From NCBI RefSeq assembly GCF_900101785.1, contig NZ_LT629688.1, positions 3,286,001 to 3,350,000 on the forward strand: DNA of 64,000 nt, given 5' to 3'. This document shows, piece by piece, positions 1,840-24,102 of the stretch. The translations under genes were made by a program, and so were the position numbers. The first letter of the stretch is position 1, and every line of letters starts with the position of its first letter. This DNA comes from Auraticoccus monumenti. GTDB taxonomy: Bacteria > Actinomycetota > Actinomycetes > Propionibacteriales > Propionibacteriaceae. The notes under the pieces were generated by a model that worked only from the letters and a program-made list of their open reading frames with translations, made no database searches and was not told the DNA's origin.

Positions 1840-2529
1840 CTACTGGGACGCCGGTCTACCTGCCTGCTCGACGAGCTCCGCGGCCACAGCCACGAGCTTG
1901 ATGTTGCCCTGCTGGGAGACGCGCGCCAGGAACTCGAAGGCCCTCTCGGCACTGAGCTGGTAGCGCTCCATCACGATCCCGGTGGCCTGGCCGATCAGCT
2001 GGCGGGTCTGCACCGCCTCGGTCAGCTGGCTCTCCCGCATCCGACGACCCAGCAGCTGACTCGCCTGAGCGCCGAAGAGCACCGCCACCTGCACCGAGGC
2101 GTCGGTGAAGGCACCAGCCTCCTCGCCGTACAGGTTGAGGCCCCCGATGCTGTCGTCCTCGTCGAAGAGGTCCAGACCCATCTGGGATCGGACGCCGAGC
2201 TGGACCGCCCGAGGGCCGAAAGCCGGCCACCGGTCGTCATGGCCCAGGTCGTTGGCGATCCGGCGCTCACGGCCCCTGATCGAGTCCACGCACGGGCCCT
2301 CCATCAGCTCGTACTGGACGGCGTCCAGCTGCCGCACCAGGTCACCAGAGGCCGCCACGGTCTCGATCCGTCCGCCTCGACGGGTGACGGAGACGCTGAC
2401 GTGGTCAGCACCCGGGATCGTCTCCTGGGCCGTCTGGGCCAGCAGCCCGAGCGCTTCCTCCATCGAGGTCCGGGCACTGGTGCGCCGAGCCACCGACTCC
2501 AACACCTCAGCCAGCTCCTGTACCTGCAT
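1840..2529 (-). CDS. GAF-ANTAR regulator
   Basis: A 229-residue cytoplasmic regulator. An N-terminal GAF-like domain spans about residues 20-155 (PGADHVSVSVTRR, EGPCVD, LNLYGEE). A C-terminal ANTAR domain follows at about 165-222 (TRQLIGQATGIVMERYQL...AFEFLARVSQQGN). ANTAR proteins bind paired-hexaloop RNA and prevent transcription termination; GAF domains usually sense a small ligand or redox state. The ATG is preceded by GGAGG with good spacing. It is about two-thirds identical by eye to the protein at 19263-20003, including the same ANTAR core, so the two are close paralogues. It lies alone here, away from the main ANTAR cluster. Confidence 0.9.
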   Translation of the reverse strand: MQVQELAEVLESVARRTSARTSMEEALGLLAQTAQETIPGADHVSVSVTRRGGRIETVAASGDLVRQLDAVQYELMEGPCVDSIRGRERRIANDLGHDDRWPAFGPRAVQLGVRSQMGLDLFDEDDSIGGLNLYGEEAGAFTDASVQVAVLFGAQASQLLGRRMRESQLTEAVQTRQLIGQATGIVMERYQLSAERAFEFLARVSQQGNIKLVAVAAELVEQAGRPASQ

Positions 2530-2715
2530 CGTGACCTCCGGTCCGGTCCGCGCGACCGACGTGGTCACCGCACCCGTTGACGATATCTGTGGTGGGTCCG
2601 CACCGAGGAGGAGGGCCCGCCGTGCTCGAGACCCTGCAGCCGCACGTCCCACCGAGGAGTGCCGGCACCGCCAGACCGGTGACGTCCGGGACCGACCGTC
2701 CCGTGCAGGAGGGCC

Positions 2716-16117: not shown

Positions 16118-16528
16118 ATGCCGAAGTACCTGCTGCTCAAGCACTACCGCGGCGGCCCGGAGCCGCACCGCAAGGTCCCCACCATGGACCAGTGGGCGCC
16201 CGAGGACGTCGAGGCCCACATGGCCTTCCTCGGCCACGTCAGCGAGCTGCTGCAGGAGCGGGGCGAGTTCGTCGACGCCCAGGCGCTCACCCCGGAGCGC
16301 ACGTTCGTCCGCTACGGCGGACCCGAGGCCGCCCCCGTCACCTCCGACGGACCGCTGCCCGAGACCAGCGACCTCGTCGCCGGCTGGTACATGATCGACG
16401 TGGAGTCCCGTGAGCGCGCGATCGAGCTCGCCGCCTACGTGTCCTCCGAGCCGGGTCCCGGCGGGGAGCCGCTGTACGAGTGGATCGACGTCCGCGAGGT
16501 CATGTCCGAGGCACCCGCCCAGGACTGA
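16118..16528 (+). CDS. YCII-related (DGPF) protein
   Basis: 136 residues, ferredoxin-like dimeric fold of the YCII/DGPF family. MPKYLLLKHYRGGP opens the domain and the family motif appears as DGPLPETSDLVAGWYMID (about 77-94). The protein's role is not established, but genes of this family sit next to ECF42 sigma factors in many genomes and are often their targets. The ATG has GGGAG upstream. The next gene starts 1 nt after its stop. Confidence 0.88.
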   Translation: MPKYLLLKHYRGGPEPHRKVPTMDQWAPEDVEAHMAFLGHVSELLQERGEFVDAQALTPERTFVRYGGPEAAPVTSDGPLPETSDLVAGWYMIDVESRERAIELAAYVSSEPGPGGEPLYEWIDVREVMSEAPAQD

Positions 16529-16529
16529 G

Positions 16530-17747
16530 GTGACCGACCAGCCGACGCCGCTGCGGGACGAGGGTGCCCTGCGCGCCCTCGTCCCGCAGGTGCTGGCCGC
16601 CATGGTGCGGCGCGGAGAGGACTTCGACGCCGCCGAGGACGCCCTGCAGGAGGCGCTGCTGGAGGCACTGCGGGTCTGGCCGGAGCACCCGCCGCAGCAC
16701 CCGCGTGCCTGGCTGACCACGGTGGCGACGCGACGTCTGGTCGACGCCCGGCGCAGCGAGGCGGCCCGCCGGCGCCGGGAGGAGAGGACCGACGCCGAAC
16801 CCGCGCCGGCCGCCACCGAGGCCGGCGACGACACCCTCTTCCTGCTGTTCTGCTGCTGCCACCCCGACCTCACCCCCGCCTCGCAGGTGGCGCTCACCCT
16901 CCGCGCGGTCGCCGGGCTCACGACCCGGGAGGTCGCCGAGGCCTGCTACGTCCCGGAGGCCACCATGGCCCAGCGCATCAGCCGGGCCAAGCGCACCCTG
17001 CGCGGACGCCGGCTCGACCAGCCGGGAGACCTCGCGGTGGTGCTGCGGGTGCTGTACCTCGTCTACACCGCGGGGCACGTGGGCCGGGTGGACCTGGCCG
17101 CCGAGGCGATCCGGCTGGCACGCCAGCTGACCCTGGCCACCGACGAGCCCGAGGCCCGGGGGCTGCTGGCCCTGATGCTGCTCAACCACGCCCGGCTCCC
17201 CGCCCGCTCCGACGCCGAGGGCCGGATCGTCACCCTCGACCGGCAGGACCGGAGCCGCTGGGACACCCGCGAGATCGCCGAGGGGGTGGCGGTGCTGCAG
17301 TCCGCGCTGGCCCTGCAGACCGACGAGCGCCCGCCCGGTCGCTACCAGGTCGAGGCCGCCATCGCCGCCCTCCACGACGACGCCGTCAGCGTGGAGGAGA
17401 CCGACTGGCCGCAGGTGCTCGCCTGGTACGACGACCTGCTGGACCTGAGTGCGGACCCGGTGCGCCAGGACCCCGCCGGCGTCCTCGGACGGGCGGTGGC
17501 GGTCGGGCACGTCCACGGCGCCGCGGCCGGTCTGCGTGAGACCGATCGGCTGGGCGACGTGATCGGGGACCGGCACCGGTGGCACGCCGCGCGCGCCCAC
17601 CTGCACGAGCTGGGGGGCGAGCTCGCCGAAGCCGCCATGGCCTACGCCGAGGCGGCCCGGCGGGCGACCCAGGTCACCGAACGGGACCACCTGGTCCGAC
17701 GCGCCGCCGAGTGCCGGCGTGCGGCCTCCGAGGCGCCGCCCGAGTGA
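16530..17747 (+). CDS. ECF42-type RNA polymerase sigma factor with C-terminal extension
   Basis: 405 residues, much longer than a basic ECF sigma (about 180). Sigma region 2 is at about 20-85 (EDALQEALLEALRVWPEHPPQHPRAWL) and region 4 at about 115-165 (VALTLRAVAGLTTREVAEACYVPEATMAQRISRAKRTL). A helical TPR/DUF6596-like extension (about 180-400) includes RGLLALMLLNHARLPAR. ECF42 members lack an anti-sigma factor, and their extension is needed for activity. It is translated immediately after the DGPF gene. GTG start set by the 1-nt spacing and N-terminal fit. Confidence 0.9.
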   Translation: MTDQPTPLRDEGALRALVPQVLAAMVRRGEDFDAAEDALQEALLEALRVWPEHPPQHPRAWLTTVATRRLVDARRSEAARRRREERTDAEPAPAATEAGDDTLFLLFCCCHPDLTPASQVALTLRAVAGLTTREVAEACYVPEATMAQRISRAKRTLRGRRLDQPGDLAVVLRVLYLVYTAGHVGRVDLAAEAIRLARQLTLATDEPEARGLLALMLLNHARLPARSDAEGRIVTLDRQDRSRWDTREIAEGVAVLQSALALQTDERPPGRYQVEAAIAALHDDAVSVEETDWPQVLAWYDDLLDLSADPVRQDPAGVLGRAVAVGHVHGAAAGLRETDRLGDVIGDRHRWHAARAHLHELGGELAEAAMAYAEAARRATQVTERDHLVRRAAECRRAASEAPPE

Positions 17748-17834: not shown

Positions 17835-18545
17835 TCAGCCCCGGCCGCGGCGCGTGTTCCGCCGGTCCGCCGAGCGCACCACCGTCTCCGCCGTGCGGGT
17901 CAGCGTGGAGCCGGCCTCGCGGGCCCTCTGGCGCAGCACCTCGTAGGCCTCGTCCGGGTCGGTGCCCGTCTGGTGGGCCAGCACGCCCTTGGCCTGCTCC
18001 ACGACGATCCGCCCGGCCAGCGCCGTGCGCAGGCTCTCCTCCACCTCCGCCGGGCCCATCGGCACCGCCCGGGCCACCACGAGGCTGGCGATGTCGGCCA
18101 GCAGCTGGCCGGTGGCCTGGTCGGCGACCTCGGCCGTCGGGTAGAAGACGTTGAGCCCGCCCAGCACCAGGCCCTGCCAGCGCATCGGGAAGCCCTGGAC
18201 GGCGTGGTAGCCGCTCTCGACGATCGCCGGACCGATGGTCCCCCACCGGGCGGCCAGCGCCTCCTGGCCGCGCACGGTCACCGCCTCCCCCGACGCCACG
18301 GTCTCCACGCACGGGCCGTCGTCGACCTGCTGCTGGTACAGCTCCAGCTCCGCGACCCGGTGCGAGGTCGCGGCCAGCAGCTCCAGCGGTGCGCCGGGAC
18401 GGGGCTGGACCAGGATGCCGAGGGCCGCCGCGTGCACCAGCTCGGCGCAGTCGCTGAGGAGGTGGTCCAGGCTGTCGGTGACGTCACCGTGCTCGACCAT
18501 GCCGACGACGGCGGCCGCGAGCACCTCTGTGGTGGTGATGCTCAT
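17835..18545 (-). CDS. GAF-ANTAR regulator (third gene of ANTAR operon)
   Basis: 236 residues. GAF-like domain at about 20-165 (AALGILVQPRPGAPLELLAATSH, DDGPCVETVASG, GLNVFYPTAEV), then ANTAR at about 175-225 (LAGRIVVEQAKGVLAHQTGTDPDEAYEVLRQRAREAG). The ATG follows AAGGAG and overlaps the preceding gene's stop (ATGA). It should bind structured RNA in target leaders through the ANTAR three-helix bundle, gated by the GAF ligand. It is the most distal gene of the three-gene operon read from 20003 downward. Confidence 0.9.
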   Translation of the reverse strand: MSITTTEVLAAAVVGMVEHGDVTDSLDHLLSDCAELVHAAALGILVQPRPGAPLELLAATSHRVAELELYQQQVDDGPCVETVASGEAVTVRGQEALAARWGTIGPAIVESGYHAVQGFPMRWQGLVLGGLNVFYPTAEVADQATGQLLADIASLVVARAVPMGPAEVEESLRTALAGRIVVEQAKGVLAHQTGTDPDEAYEVLRQRAREAGSTLTRTAETVVRSADRRNTRRGRG

Positions 18546-19270
18546 CGTGCGTCTCCTTCCGGGTCGGGGTCGATGCGGGTGAAGTCCAGGGCGCGCTCGA
18601 GGACCTGGGTGGCGGTGTCGTCCATGGTCTGGTCGGCGGCGAAGGAGTGCGCGCGCAGCAGGGCGTAGGCGTCGTCGGCGCTGAGCCCCAGCTGGGCCAG
18701 CACCATGCCGGTGGCCTGGTGCAGACGGCTGCGCTGGGCCCAGGTGTCGCTGGCCGCGAGCGTCTGCAGGGACTCGGGGCTGACCAGCACCGCCCCGACC
18801 GCGTCGACCAGCAGCTGCAGCGACTCCGGGGCCGTCGCCGGCGCACGCGGCTCGCGCCGGTAGCAGGTGAAGGCCCCGGTCGACCGGCCGCGGGAGCGCA
18901 TCGGCACGGCGTCGATGTAGCACGGGCCCACCGTGTCGGTGATGACCGAGGCCGCCTCGGCCCACTCCGCCGGCGGATGACGGGTGCTGAGGGTCGAGCT
19001 GACCCCGGTGAGGAAGGCGCGGGGGCCAGGGCCGGCGCGCAGCACCTCCTGCAGGTCGTCCAGCCGGTCCGCGGTCTCGTCGGTGGCGCCGAGGGGGTGG
19101 TGCTCGGTGGTTCCGGTGGCCAGCGACAGAGCACCCCCGTCGGCGCCGGCCGTCACCGTGGTGAGCCGGCAGAGCCGCAGCGCCAGCGGTTCGGGACTGT
19201 CCTCGGCGACGGCGCGGGCCACCATCGCCAGCACCTGCCTCCCGGACAGCTGCAGCGGGTGCTCAGTCAT
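18542..19270 (-). CDS. GAF-ANTAR-like regulator (second gene of ANTAR operon)
   Basis: 242 residues. The N-terminal domain (about 15-165) is a diverged GAF fold (ADGGALSLATGTTEHHPLGATDE, VGPCYIDAVPMRSRGRSTGAFTCYR). The ANTAR domain at about 175-230 reads RSRLHQATGMVLAQLGLSADDAYALLRAHSFA. It lacks the EGPC motif of its neighbours, so its signal probably differs. It overlaps the upstream gene by 8 nt and the downstream gene by 4 nt, so the three are made from one message. Confidence 0.87.
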   Translation of the reverse strand: MTEHPLQLSGRQVLAMVARAVAEDSPEPLALRLCRLTTVTAGADGGALSLATGTTEHHPLGATDETADRLDDLQEVLRAGPGPRAFLTGVSSTLSTRHPPAEWAEAASVITDTVGPCYIDAVPMRSRGRSTGAFTCYRREPRAPATAPESLQLLVDAVGAVLVSPESLQTLAASDTWAQRSRLHQATGMVLAQLGLSADDAYALLRAHSFAADQTMDDTATQVLERALDFTRIDPDPEGDAR

Positions 19271-20003
19271 CCTGGTGCCGCCACCCGCCACGGCCCGTGT
19301 CGTCGTCCGGATGATCCCGCGTGCGGGCGGAGGCGGCCTGGTCGACGAGCTCGGCGGCGATCTCGACCAGCTTGCGGTTGCCCTGCTGGGAGACCCGGGC
19401 GAGGAACTCGAAGGCGCGCTCGGCACCCAGCTGGTAGCGCTCCATCACGATCCCGGTGGCCTGCCCGATCAGCTGGCGCGTCCCCAGGGCGGCGGTCAGC
19501 TGGCTCTCGCGCATCCGCCGACCCAGCAGGTGGCTGGCGTGGGAACCGAACAGGACCGCGACGTGGGTCGACGCCTCGTCGAAGGCGGACGGCTGGTCGC
19601 CGTAGAGGTTCAGGCCGCCGATGCTCTCGCCGTCGTCGTAGAGGTCCAGACCCATCTGCGAACGCACCCCGAGGTCGACGGCCCGGGGGGCGAAGCGGGG
19701 CCACCGCTCATCCGTGTGCAGGTCGTGGCTGGTCCGGCGCTGCCGCTGCCGGACCGCCTCCACGCACGGGCCCTCACCGAGCTCGTGCTGGACGGCGTCG
19801 AGGCGCCGCACCAGGTCGTCGGACGCCGCGATCGTCTCGAGGCGCCCGTTGCGACGACTGATCGAGATCGAGACGTGGTCCGCTCCGGGGACGGTCTGCT
19901 GAGCCGCTGTGACCAGGAGGTCCAGGGCCTCCTCCAGAGAGGTCTCGCCGTGGGACCGCCGGGCCACCTCCTCCAGCACGGTGGACAGCTCCGCGACGTC
20001 CAT
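19263..20003 (-). CDS. GAF-ANTAR regulator (first gene of ANTAR operon)
   Basis: 246 residues. GAF at about 20-155 (PGADHVSISISRRNGRLET, EGPCVEAVR, LNLYGD), ANTAR at about 165-222 (TRQLIGQATGIVMERYQLGAERAFEFLARVSQQGN), plus a short charged tail. ATG with GGAGG 6 nt upstream. It is a close paralogue of the protein at 1840-2529, sharing the ANTAR block almost unchanged, so the two may recognise the same RNA. It heads the ANTAR operon and is divergent from the PAS-ANTAR gene at 20197. Confidence 0.9.
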   Translation of the reverse strand: MDVAELSTVLEEVARRSHGETSLEEALDLLVTAAQQTVPGADHVSISISRRNGRLETIAASDDLVRRLDAVQHELGEGPCVEAVRQRQRRTSHDLHTDERWPRFAPRAVDLGVRSQMGLDLYDDGESIGGLNLYGDQPSAFDEASTHVAVLFGSHASHLLGRRMRESQLTAALGTRQLIGQATGIVMERYQLGAERAFEFLARVSQQGNRKLVEIAAELVDQAASARTRDHPDDDTGRGGWRHQDD

Positions 20004-20196
20004 GGTCGACCTCCGCTCCGGGCACGCGCAGCGCCCATCTCCCGACGGTATCCCACCCGGCTCGTCCTCCCGCCCCCCGCGGATCAGACCCGCAGGGAGT
20101 CCCAGGCGAACCCCCTTGTCCCGACCCGGGCGCGGGGAGACACTGAGCACGGGTCGAGAACCGGGCCGCCTCGTACCTCTCGAAGGTGTGGTCCCC

Positions 20197-20898
20197 GTGT
20201 CGGCTCCCGTCCTCCCCTCCCCCTCACCCGGTGTCCTCCCCCCGTCGGGGGCCGGACGCTTCAGCGCCCTGCTCGACGAGGACGTCTGGTCCTGGTCCGA
20301 GGAGCTGGTCAGGCTGCTCGGACACGCGGAGCAGCCGACCCTCGTCACCACCGAGCTGTTCCTGCACCACGTCCTGCCACCGGACCGGCCGGTTGCCGCG
20401 GCCCTGCTCGAGGCGGCCACCGAAGGTCCCTGCACCGTCCGGCTTCGGGCCCGGACCAGCCGGGGACGCGACCTCGTGCTGGACGTGAGCGCAGCACCAC
20501 GCCCTCGGGCTGCCGGGGCCCCGAGCTGGTTGTCCAGCGGCATCGAGGGCACCGTGGCCCCCGTCGCCGACCGGGCGCACGAGGTGGCGGGGAGTCCGTC
20601 CACCCGCCCGGTCGAGGACGCCCGTGAGCTCCTGGTGCTCGCCCTGGGTCTGGGGAGGGACGCAGCACTGGCCCTGCTCACCCACCACGCCCGGGCCCGC
20701 CGGCTGACCGTGGCGGAGCTGGCCCGTGACCTGGTGCGCGTCTGTGCGGCGGTGCCCACCTCCCAGCTGTCGCAGGCCCTGGTGGCCGCGGCGCTGTCCG
20801 GTGCGGCTGACACCCCGCACGCCGCTGCCTCCCACCCCGGCGCCGCTGATCCTGGTGGCGCGGGGTTCCCGGCCCGTGGCGCTAGTGCCATCCCCTGA
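20197..20898 (+). CDS. PAS-ANTAR regulator
   Basis: 233 residues. A PAS_3-like domain lies at about 20-95 (WSWSEELVRLLGHAEQPTLVTTELFLHHVLPPDR), followed by an ANTAR-like helical domain at about 140-190 (ARELLVLALGLGRDAALALLTHHARARRLTVAELARDL) and a low-complexity tail. PAS-ANTAR proteins sense small ligands or redox state. The GTG at 20197 has CGAAGG 10 nt upstream; a GTG three codons earlier is too close to it. It is divergent from the three-gene ANTAR operon, with a shared 193-bp control region. Confidence 0.8.
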   Translation: MSAPVLPSPSPGVLPPSGAGRFSALLDEDVWSWSEELVRLLGHAEQPTLVTTELFLHHVLPPDRPVAAALLEAATEGPCTVRLRARTSRGRDLVLDVSAAPRPRAAGAPSWLSSGIEGTVAPVADRAHEVAGSPSTRPVEDARELLVLALGLGRDAALALLTHHARARRLTVAELARDLVRVCAAVPTSQLSQALVAAALSGAADTPHAAASHPGAADPGGAGFPARGASAIP

Positions 20899-21102
20899 GG
20901 ACCGCCGCAACCCGTCCCGGACGGGCACGGTGCGTCCAGGGGCCGCGCCGGCCCGGAACCCGACCCGACCGTCGGTCTGCACCGGTGCGGTCAGGGAGGA
21001 ACACATGGGTTCGACCACGACGACCCCCCGCCGAGGACGACACCGCCCGCCGAGCACGCCGCAGAGCCCGCCGGGCCACCTGTCCGGTGCCGGGGCGTCC
21101 GC

Positions 21103-21411
21103 GTGACGGTGGGGTCGGACGAGCAGCGGGTGACCGCGCTGGTCCGGTCGCTGCACGAGCAGCCGACAGTCGACGCGCTGGCGCACCTCTACGACGTGAC
21201 CGGACCGGCGGTCTACACCTGGGCCCTGGACAAGGCGCCCCGCCCGCTGGCCGAACGCATCGTCGTCGACACCTACACCAACCTGTGGCTCAGGTCCTCC
21301 ACCTACAGCACCGGGGTCCCCGGCTGGAGCTGGGTGCGCGCCCAGGCCCTGACCGCGTTGCAGCACCACCGCGCGCCGGACCCCGGCGTCCGGCCCGACG
21401 CTCCTGCCTGA
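21103..21411 (+). CDS. Small protein resembling sigma-70 region 2 only
   Basis: 102 residues. The body ALAHLYDVTGPAVYTWALDKAPRPLAERIVVDTYTNLW followed by a Trp-rich WSWVRAQALTAL matches the helical region 2 of ECF sigma factors (core-RNAP binding and -10 recognition). There is no region 4. The frame is short, closes cleanly and shows actinobacterial codon use. It may be a truncated sigma factor or a regulatory decoy. It sits among ANTAR genes, facing the one that ends at 21426, with only 14 bp between the two stops. Confidence 0.65.
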   Translation: MTVGSDEQRVTALVRSLHEQPTVDALAHLYDVTGPAVYTWALDKAPRPLAERIVVDTYTNLWLRSSTYSTGVPGWSWVRAQALTALQHHRAPDPGVRPDAPA

Positions 21412-21425
21412 GCGGTGTGGTCCGG

Positions 21426-22157
21426 CTACACCTGGCCGGGCAGACGGCGCCGGGTGACCAGCTCGGTGGCGACCGCGTGCAGCTTGCGGTTCTCGGCCTG
21501 GCTGACCCGGGTGAGGACGCTGAAGGCCTGCGCGGCGTCGACGCCGTAGCGCTCCATCAGGATCCCCTTGGCCTGCCCGATCAGGTCGCGGCTGGCCAGC
21601 CCCTGGCTCAGCTGGTCCAGCTTCTGCGCGTCGGCGAAGGCGATCGCGGCGTGGCTGGCGAAGATCAGACCGACGTGCTCGGAGTCGTCGTCGAAGGCCC
21701 CCGGACGGCGGCCGTAGAGGTTGAGCGCCCCCAGCGTGTCCCCGACGACGTAGAGCTGGAAGGACAGCATGCTCGCCGCACCCAGCTCCGCAGCCCGGGC
21801 GGCGAACCGCGGCCACCGGGACTCGGTGCGCATGTCGGGCACCCGCACCGTCTGCTGCTCGTAGGCCGCATCCAGGCAGGGCCCTTCCCGCACCGCGGAC
21901 TGGACCTCGTCCACCCTCCGCGGCAGGTCCCCGCTCGCGCTGGAGGAGGTGATGTCCCGCCTCCCGCGCACCACGCTGATCGACCCCTCGTCCGCACCCG
22001 GGATGAGAGACACCGCGGCCACGACCAGCTCGTCCAGCATGGCACCGGTGTCGCGCTCGCCCTGGAGCTGCCGGGCCATCTCGCCGAGCTGCCGGGCGAG
22101 CAGGTCCTCACCGCCCTGGCGCCCGGACGGCTGCTGGTTGACTGGTCCCCGCGACAC
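21426..22157 (-). CDS. GAF-ANTAR regulator
   Basis: 243 residues. GAF at about 35-170 (PGADEGSISVVRGRRDITSSSASGDL, EGPCLDAAYEQQTVRVPDM, LNLYGRRPGAF), ANTAR at about 180-235 (LASRDLIGQAKGILMERYGVDAAQAFSVLTRVSQAENRKLH). GTG start with GGAGG 4 nt upstream; longer upstream frames lack coding character. The same EGPC and LNLYG motifs link it to the proteins at 1840 and 19263, but it is clearly more distant. It is convergent with the small sigma-like gene. Confidence 0.88.
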   Translation of the reverse strand: MSRGPVNQQPSGRQGGEDLLARQLGEMARQLQGERDTGAMLDELVVAAVSLIPGADEGSISVVRGRRDITSSSASGDLPRRVDEVQSAVREGPCLDAAYEQQTVRVPDMRTESRWPRFAARAAELGAASMLSFQLYVVGDTLGALNLYGRRPGAFDDDSEHVGLIFASHAAIAFADAQKLDQLSQGLASRDLIGQAKGILMERYGVDAAQAFSVLTRVSQAENRKLHAVATELVTRRRLPGQV

Positions 22158-22255
22158 GCTGCCTCCTGGTGGGTCGCCGTCCACGGCGGACGGTTCTCGC
22201 GCGGCAGCGACCCTGCAGCACCAACCTGCCACACGCCCGGCCCCGGCGACGCCAC

Positions 22256-22296
22256 GGTGGTCCCCCTCTTGTCCCCCGACCGAGGGGGAGACCACC
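22256..22296 (-). terminator. Stem-loop with long arms, possible attenuator upstream of GAF-ANTAR gene
   Basis: The arms 22256-22268 (GGTGGTCCCCCTC) and 22282-22296 pair over about 13 bp with a small bulge around a 13-nt loop. It lies about 100-140 nt upstream of the GTG at 22157, in its likely leader. Confidence 0.45.
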
Positions 22297-22335
22297 TGGC
22301 GACTCCCCGGGGGCTCAGCCCCGTGCTGCCGCCGA

Positions 22336-22357
22336 CGGACCGCCGGCGGGCGGTCCG
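22336..22357 (-). terminator. Perfect 9-bp hairpin between ANTAR genes
   Basis: CGGACCGCC-GGCG-GGCGGTCCG. It could end transcription of the minus-strand gene at 22636 or belong to the leader of the gene starting at 22157. Confidence 0.5.
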
Positions 22358-22635
22358 CCGTGACCGGGCACGGCTGTCGTGCAGCCGTCGGCGAGCACAT
22401 CGACACGTCCTGCGGTCCGGTGGGCTCGAGGCTCCCGGAGGGCTCTGCTGCTCATGGGCGGACCACCGACGTGGTGCAGGTGCCTGGACAAGATGCCACC
22501 GAGCGGAAGGCGGCCCCCGGGGCGGCACGACCGGACGCGGCACACGGCTGGTTCAGCGAGATCAGTGAACCGGCGGGTACCGACGCTGTCAAGGATCCGC
22601 GCCGGGGAGAAGTGCACCAGACGGCACACCGTCGT

Positions 22636-23187
22636 CTAACCGACGTCGGCGACGACCTGCACGGCGCGCTGGACGAGGCTGACGCCGAGCCGGCGGGCCG
22701 AGGCCTCGAGCTCGGCCCGGGCGCTGGCCACGGTGTGCCCGCGGGCCAGCAGCACGCCGATGGCCCGGTCGACCTGGGTGGCCTCGACGAGCCCCCGCAG
22801 GTCGTCGTGCTGGGAGGGAGGGGGCAGGTGCGCGTCCAGGACCACCTCCGCAGGACCGAGGTGGAGCGCGTGGCAGAGGTCCGCCGCCAGGTCCACGAAG
22901 GCGCCGGGGGTGGAGGCCCAGAAGGTGAAGGCCCCCCCGGCGCCGCCGGTCAGGGCGAGGACCGGGACGTGCAACGACGTGGTGGCCTCGCCGACCGCCG
23001 GCCACCGGGTCAACCGGACCGGCGTGGCCCCTCCGGCCAGCAGCAGCTCCAGCCCCAGGAAGGAGCGCACCGCGCCACGCAGGCTGTCCACCAGCGCGTC
23101 CAGCAGGCTCGGGAGGTGGTCGGGCGCCTGGCCGGTGGCCAGGGCGAGGTCGTGGAGGGCGGCGGTCAGTTCCGTGGTACTGCCCAC
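22636..23187 (-). CDS. ANTAR-domain regulator with diverged sensor domain
   Basis: 183 residues from the chosen GTG, which has GGAG 7 nt upstream; a GTG at 23235 would add 16 residues but has no ribosome-binding site. The N-terminal ~125 residues are a diverged GAF-like domain (LGLELLLAGGATPVRLTRWPAVGEATTSLHVPVLAL). The C-terminal ~55 are ANTAR (VEATQVDRAIGVLLARGHTVASARAELEASARRLGVSL). The sensor lacks the EGPC motif, so its signal differs from the main GAF-ANTAR set. Confidence 0.82.
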   Translation of the reverse strand: MGSTTELTAALHDLALATGQAPDHLPSLLDALVDSLRGAVRSFLGLELLLAGGATPVRLTRWPAVGEATTSLHVPVLALTGGAGGAFTFWASTPGAFVDLAADLCHALHLGPAEVVLDAHLPPPSQHDDLRGLVEATQVDRAIGVLLARGHTVASARAELEASARRLGVSLVQRAVQVVADVG

Positions 23188-23346
23188 AGAGGTGCTCCGA
23201 ACGAGCGGCCCGATCGCCGGCACTGCCTGGTTCACAGCGGCGGACCGCGCGCTGGGAGACGTCGGCGCAGGTGAGCCCCACCTCGGGCTGGGCTCGTCCG
23301 CCGACGCCGGTGAGTCTACGTCAGCCGAGGTGCCGGCGTACGTCGA

Positions 23347-24102
23347 TCACTCGTGCTCGGTGTGCCGGGCCCTCGAGCGGCGGACCGCCTCATCGACGAT
23401 GGTGCGGGCCAGGGCCGACATCTTCGTGTGCTGGTGCTGGCTCAGCGTGCGGAGCCGCTCCAGCGCCTCCGCCGGGGTGCCGCCGGAACGTGCCAGCATG
23501 ATGCCCACGGCCTGGTCGACCACGGAACGCTCCTCCAGCGAGGACCCCAGCCGCTGGGCCAGCCGCACGGCCTGGGCCAGCACGTGCGCGTTCTGGACCG
23601 CGATCGCCGCCGGGACGGCGAACACCTCCCCCAGGGAGGCCGCCCGGTCGTCGAAGACGTGCTTGTCGCGCGCGTAGACGTTCAGCGCCCCCACCACCTC
23701 AGGCCCCACCAGCAGCGGCAGCGACACCGCGCTGTGCACGCCGAGCCGGGCCACCCGGGAGCCGAACCGCACCCACCGGTGGTCACCACCCAGGGAGCCG
23801 GACACCACCGTGGTGCCGAGCGCGGCCGCGTCGATGCAGGGACCCTGCCCGAGGCCGTACTGGATGGCGTCGACCTCGGCCACGAAGTCGGAGGTGGTGA
23901 CGATGGTGTCCGGGCGGCCCGACTCGAGGAGCGTCAGCCCGGCGCCATCGGCGCCGGGGATGGCCCGCACGGCCAGCAGGGCCACCCGGGTCAGCGACTC
24001 CTCGAGCGGCTGGCCGGCCATGGAGAGCCCGGCCAGGTCCCGCAGACTGCTCTCCAGGTCCCGCTCCTGGGAAGAACGGTCACCCTCGTCGTCGTCCGGC
24101 AC
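23347..24102 (-). CDS. GAF-ANTAR regulator
   Basis: 251 residues. Acidic N-terminus, GAF at about 45-175 (PGADGAGLTLLESGRPDTIVTTSDF, QGPCIDAAALGTTVVSGS, LNVYARDKHVF), ANTAR at about 185-240 (RSVVDQAVGIMLARSGGTPAEALERLRTLSQHQHTK). The GAF domain has the QGPC variant of the cysteine motif. It is separated by about 160 bp from the ANTAR gene downstream and by about 100 bp from the flavoprotein gene on the other side, so it is probably its own unit. Confidence 0.88.
   Translation of the reverse strand: MPDDDEGDRSSQERDLESSLRDLAGLSMAGQPLEESLTRVALLAVRAIPGADGAGLTLLESGRPDTIVTTSDFVAEVDAIQYGLGQGPCIDAAALGTTVVSGSLGGDHRWVRFGSRVARLGVHSAVSLPLLVGPEVVGALNVYARDKHVFDDRAASLGEVFAVPAAIAVQNAHVLAQAVRLAQRLGSSLEERSVVDQAVGIMLARSGGTPAEALERLRTLSQHQHTKMSALARTIVDEAVRRSRARHTEHE

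Follow-up and report, generated by a model that had tools for sequence, protein, structure and literature searches.

What brings seven genes of one protein family together within 6.3 kb of a bacterial chromosome, and do their products work jointly or apart? We addressed this question in a window of 64,000 nucleotides of Auraticoccus monumenti (bases 3286001-3350000 of a single-contig genome of 4.46 Mb with 74% GC); positions below are those of the window unless a genome or locus is named. The most informative feature of the locus, which is absent from the original prediction, is that it holds two gene pairs conserved elsewhere, namely gene B followed by gene A and gene F followed by gene E. 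Our reading, to which we assign a probability of roughly 0.45, is that the locus brings together one-component ANTAR regulators around these two pairs and is not a row of tandem copies, with the products of A and B forming a hetero-oligomer.

Gene content of the cluster

The original prediction had placed seven ANTAR-type genes within 17835-24102, and this number was borne out, with five genes clear from Pfam alone, one (P) borderline, and one (E) recognizable through its homologs. On the minus strand, the order of transcription is F, E, D, C, B, and A, while P, located between C and D, is encoded on the plus strand. Three of the genes encode canonical GAF-ANTAR proteins, namely F (23347..24102; ANTAR 51.3 bits, GAF_2 50.9 bits), D (21426..22157; ANTAR 70.8 bits, GAF_2 61.2 bits), and C (19263..20003; ANTAR 67.5 bits, GAF_2 60.7 bits). 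Gene E (22636..23235), the second member of the F-E pair, combines a degenerate GAF-like region with an ANTAR domain. Downstream of C, gene B (18542..19270) encodes a GAF domain and a variant ANTAR domain (35.6 bits), the match to which covers profile positions 8-54 only, and gene A (17835..18545) encodes a GAF-ANTAR protein of a clade of its own (57 bits). These last three genes overlap, as had been claimed: B and C share 8 nt, and the ATG that starts A at 18545 lies in a 4-nt overlap with the stop codon of B (ATGA, 18542..18545, minus strand, read from the sequence). Because the B and A genes overlap, they are probably translationally coupled.

The seventh gene, P (20197..20898, plus strand, 233 aa), had been described as a PAS-ANTAR gene, a description that held only in part. 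Its divergent ANTAR domain is borderline (25.1 bits for the whole ORF, 28.3 bits in the genome search), its resemblance to PAS is weak (PAS_3, 16 bits, below the cut-off), and it lies on the strand opposite to the rest. No LOV domain was found in P, for which Pfam returned just the weak PAS_3 and ANTAR matches. At the Pfam ANTAR (PF03861) cut-off of 27.3 bits, A, B, C, D, F, and a further gene outside the cluster (X) pass, P is borderline, and E alone falls below (15.8 bits). In the set of E homologs, ANTAR was matched in eight of nine members (best E-value 8.6e-8), and E is therefore a true member of the ANTAR family that is recognized via its homologs. The AlphaFold2 model of E, of moderate confidence (pLDDT 70.6), has a C-terminal three-helix ANTAR domain (helices 146-164, 169-183, and 187-198), and that of B (pLDDT 89.1) has a GAF domain and a three-helix ANTAR domain (helices 177-194, 198-211, and 216-224).

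Gene X (1840..2568, minus strand; ANTAR 66.2 bits) is a GAF-ANTAR gene and confirms the eighth ANTAR gene proposed at 1840. A ninth GAF-ANTAR gene (G000:C1:3285205-3285897, or L025:5206-5898; ANTAR match at G000:C1:3285709-3285870) lies about 100 nt to the left of the window edge and less than 3 kb from X.

The sensor regions do diverge among the proteins, in agreement with the original prediction, but the EGPC motif (as in D) and the QGPC motif (as in F) that had been taken for different sensor types do not mark separate types; both are forms of one GAF motif, GPC, that varies within clades. A histidine kinase partner is indeed missing from the locus, although this is no anomaly. Pfam found no receiver domain in any cluster protein, and since none of the seven has one, they are one-component regulators, for which a missing kinase is expected and uninformative.

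Density and origin of the cluster

The whole genome holds 17-18 ANTAR matches, 17 of them over the cut-off, and six matches over the cut-off fall within this 6.3 kb, which is far beyond chance for a genome of 4.46 Mb. The unusual density noted at the outset was thus upheld, also in comparison with relatives: of the 59 same-family genomes compared, the majority carry 1-2 ANTAR genes, and only a few are rich in them (18 matches in A. monumenti itself, 19 in G017, 14 in G052, 11 in the sister species, 8 in G014, and 6 in G043). The cluster is likewise rare in the family. G052 has a cluster of six ANTAR genes in 7.5 kb, with three D-like genes among its ANTAR set, and G017 has a triple of overlapping genes of types B, A, and C in that order, while in the sister species the cluster is absent. 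Another family carries its own clusters of three to four ANTAR genes (G091, G104, G115, and G144), and the cluster studied here, though unusual for the family it belongs to, is therefore not the only one of its kind. In four loci of one family (L167, L168, L169, and L172) we also observed a different conserved cluster, made up of two GAF-ANTAR genes plus a divergent GAF-ANTAR gene; three of these loci have a B-type gene on its own as well.

In a tree of 65 proteins, the cluster members A, B, D, F, and P and the C/X group each fall into an old clade of their own that also has members from other genera, although long branches make the positions of E and P uncertain. A groups with one G017 gene (L020:7072-7788, support 100/99) and B with another (L020:6323-7075, support 99/97); the relatives of D are found in the sister species, G052, and G014, P is related to a G014 gene (L055), and F has 65% identity to one G052 gene. 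C and X, with 70-72% identity and a joint clade (support 100/99), are the sole recent paralogs among the cluster genes and X. Tandem duplication as the origin of the cluster is ruled out by these separate clades, with the exception of C/X. The B and A proteins of G052 have 61-68% identity to their mycobacterial counterparts, which suggests transfer.

A conserved pair of B and A

An alignment of B-type proteins was scanned against 84,980 genomes, and this gave 80 named loci that had been retrieved with B alone. In 68 of the 80, the gene next after B on the same strand belongs to the A clade, and these pairs span 34 of 39 genus labels, with hosts that include Kribbella, Nocardioides, Pseudonocardia, Amycolatopsis, Actinoplanes, Frankia, Mycobacterium, Streptomyces, and MAGs of the Acidimicrobiales. 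The commonest spacing among the 68 loci is the same -4 (ATGA) as in the window, and gaps of up to about 60 nt also occur. Independent A and B profiles, run on 98 genomes drawn from the class, gave a similar picture: 30 of 36 strong A matches and 30 of 37 strong B matches are paired, in 26 genomes, leaving an unpaired minority of 6/36 and 7/37, respectively. Distances among A proteins and among B proteins are strongly correlated (r = 0.81, against a permutation maximum of 0.15), as expected for a jointly inherited unit, although species phylogeny accounts for part of this congruence.

Clustering of the gene neighbors of B-A loci found no other conserved neighbor, the next-best family being present in 7 genus labels, where its position is scattered. 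The pair is thus kept together across actinobacteria with nothing else around it conserved. The same clustering left no conserved neighboring gene as a candidate target. A third ANTAR gene lies within 3.5 kb in 20 of 66 B-A loci, and two kinds of company recur: six mycobacterial loci have F near B-A, and five loci have C-type genes there. Loci of Mycobacterium and Mycolicibacterium (L110, L116, L117, L120, L132, and L136) share one layout, in which B and A are followed by a convergent F-type GAF-ANTAR gene at a distance of about 260-300 bases from ANTAR to ANTAR. In two other loci (L094 and L124, of Actinomycetospora and Lentzea), two B-A pairs face each other within about 4 kb.

The F-E pair is a second, rarer conserved pair. 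We found E-like genes in 8 of 247 genomes, A. monumenti included, and E directly follows an F-type gene in all six of the other genomes in which the upstream side is on the contig.

One altered partner in each pair

We mapped the RNA-contact residues of EutV, which are R168, M172, N173, R175, and R177 (PMC8934654), onto the cluster proteins through a PDB alignment. Window A has R at the positions of both R168 and M172, together with G and T at those of R175 and R177, and these last two residues make its RNA binding uncertain. Across the A clade, R168 is kept in 56/68 proteins and R stands at 172 in 55/68, while position 175 is mostly N or G and position 177 mostly R, K, or H. Window B has F, D, and T at the equivalents of the EutV contacts; in its clade R168 is nearly invariant (67/69), Y or F occupies 172 (68/69), position 175 is mostly G or D, and 177 is mainly P, S, or T. 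In E, residue 175 is G and residue 177 is S, so that A, B, and E of the window are all without basic residues at the positions of EutV R175 and R177. In the canonical proteins of the C/D type, residue 172 is Q, residue 175 is N, and residue 177 is K; X likewise has N and K at the latter two, as does the PAS-ANTAR-LOV protein PAL. Proven RNA binders also vary at the EutV contact positions.

A clearer division between partners lies in the coiled-coil signature L..AL..R that precedes the ANTAR helix. In the A clade it is highly conserved (L-5 in 51/68, A-2 in 63/68, L-1 in 67/68, and R in 68/68), and it is largely present in the canonical C/D-type proteins; in the B clade it is gone, with no conservation at positions -5 to -1, and by inspection the coiled-coil part of E and P has no match either. 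The B clade has a conserved pattern of its own instead (QATGMV..QL and LRAHAY/F), and this, together with the predicted intact GAF and three-helix ANTAR domains, indicates that B is specialized and not decayed. The partners also differ in their sensors, as the Cys of the GAF GPC motif is present in 63/68 A-clade but 32/69 B-clade proteins. In both pairs, one member keeps the coiled-coil signature and a normal ANTAR domain, while the ANTAR domain of its partner is altered but conserved.

Possible modes of action

On these grounds the B-A unit may be a two-part RNA regulator. In the mechanism we propose, A and B would be produced at the same level and assemble into a hetero-oligomer, the GAF domain of each subunit sensing a small ligand or redox state of its own. 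The dimer helix would come from A, as would most of the RNA-binding surface, and B, which has neither the coiled-coil nor basic residues at 175/177, would be a co-translated modulating subunit and second sensor. The unit could then bind hairpin RNA of target mRNAs in trans and alter termination or translation. Such a division of labor is made plausible by the EutV dimer, both ANTAR domains of which touch one hexaloop asymmetrically (PMC8934654); in EutV, the adjoining helix has also been reported to raise RNA affinity strongly (PMC7496416). C, D, and F probably work in the ordinary way, as GAF-ANTAR homodimers whose RNA-binding face is PAL-like or canonical. A more far-reaching version, which we hold only tentatively and consider somewhat improbable, is that B-A and F-E both encode ANTAR regulators that function only as heteromers. 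They would represent a two-gene module, present throughout the phylum, for two-input control of one RNA-binding event, in which the subunit that has lost the coiled-coil and some of its RNA-contact surface is a dedicated second sensor or modulator.

Co-translation of A and B suits two proteins with a common regulon equally well, and it is possible, though we think a little less likely again, that all the proteins are independent one-component regulators, each homodimeric and responding to a different ligand, with overlapping RNA targets and with co-transcription serving balanced dosage. The presence of ANTAR in all seven, their differing sensors, and the third ANTAR gene near nearly a third of B-A loci (the 20/66 above) would all fit this, as would the suggestion that several ANTAR proteins may share a single RNA (PMC8164766), but it leaves unexplained why B specifically is kept before A and why one partner consistently loses the coiled-coil signature. 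That same loss, along with that of part of the RNA-contact residues, could instead mean that B and E are decaying or anti-regulatory paralogs that no longer bind RNA and that sequester or titrate A and F, as dominant-negative proteins or anti-antiterminators, or some other ligand. We regard this as unlikely; the strong conservation of the B-specific ANTAR pattern across about 35 genera rules out decay, though for B only, and it leaves inhibition untouched. Finally, the locus could be a hot spot at which ANTAR genes have accreted by chance through duplication and transfer without joint function. The composition of the cluster does vary by genome, as seen in the three D-like genes of G052 and the B-A-C order of G017, and the sister species is without it, yet the conservation of B-A across the class and the recurrence of F and C-type genes near it, in six mycobacterial loci and in five loci, respectively, make chance accretion very improbable.

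RNA targets and relation to known ANTAR systems

The original prediction also held that several signals feed one RNA-antitermination output, and this was not supported: the ANTAR domains are not equivalent, and a low-power test showed no enrichment of dual hexaloops. For that test we used a strict descriptor (two stems, hexaloops with A1/G4, and a linker of 2-25) with dinucleotide shuffles as the control. Matches in the window were not above those in the shuffles, and at the same low power there were none in 59 upstream regions of B-A operons or in seven upstream regions of the cluster; an Rfam search of the window gave no match. Chance matches arise at about 4 per 64 kb on both strands, and they swamp genome-wide use of the descriptor in DNA of 74% GC. 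The result argues against simple autoregulation in cis via the classic motif but, given how divergent the ANTAR RNAs of actinobacteria are, reveals little about targets at other sites, and models from outside the actinobacteria have been reported to fail within them (PMC8164766).

Several known systems resemble the cluster in part. NasR (NIT-ANTAR) and AmiR, which are one-component or ligand-controlled antiterminators, likewise join a sensor to a C-terminal three-helix ANTAR domain without a histidine kinase, but they are homodimers encoded by single genes with a known leader RNA, whereas here several genes are grouped in pairs, and the descriptor and Rfam searches above gave no target RNA. 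The closest solved ANTAR domain to D by sequence (E-value 7e-5) is that of PAL (PAS-ANTAR-LOV) from Nakamurella multipartita (PDB 6HMJ). Its NRK residues are common to C and D and missing from A, B, E, and P, and P, although PAS-ANTAR-like, differs from PAL in having no LOV domain. With EutV and PdtaR (Rv1626), which are receiver-ANTAR response regulators, the profile search found the ANTAR output domain in common; unlike them, the cluster proteins have no receiver domain or kinase. The genome does have a receiver-ANTAR-like gene of its own elsewhere (L001). The survey of actinobacterial ANTAR proteins by Mehta and Ramesh in 2021 (PMC8164766) covers the same phylum and protein family and describes multiple ANTAR proteins per genome, and a term search of its main text returned no tandem, adjacent, or GAF-ANTAR arrangement. 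In the open-access literature searched, we found neither a description of paired GAF-ANTAR genes nor any GAF-ANTAR protein for which an RNA target has been defined. Proteins of this type are abundant in actinobacteria, and a two-gene unit that is conserved and in which one partner is altered offers a defined, testable handle on them. If ANTAR heteromers exist, target searches based on single proteins or on the classic dual hairpin may have missed their targets.

Two further features of the locus deserve mention. Between P and D, on the plus strand, a 102-aa ORF of coding-like composition (21103-21411) resembles by eye region 2 of a sigma-70 factor without the DNA-binding region; it gave no significant match in Pfam or NCBIfam, the latter of which returned no informative names, and it has no relative in the fetched loci. 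Adjoining the cluster, at 16118-17747 on the plus strand, a gene for a YCII-domain protein is directly followed by one for a DUF6596 ECF-type sigma factor, which is a common gene combination.
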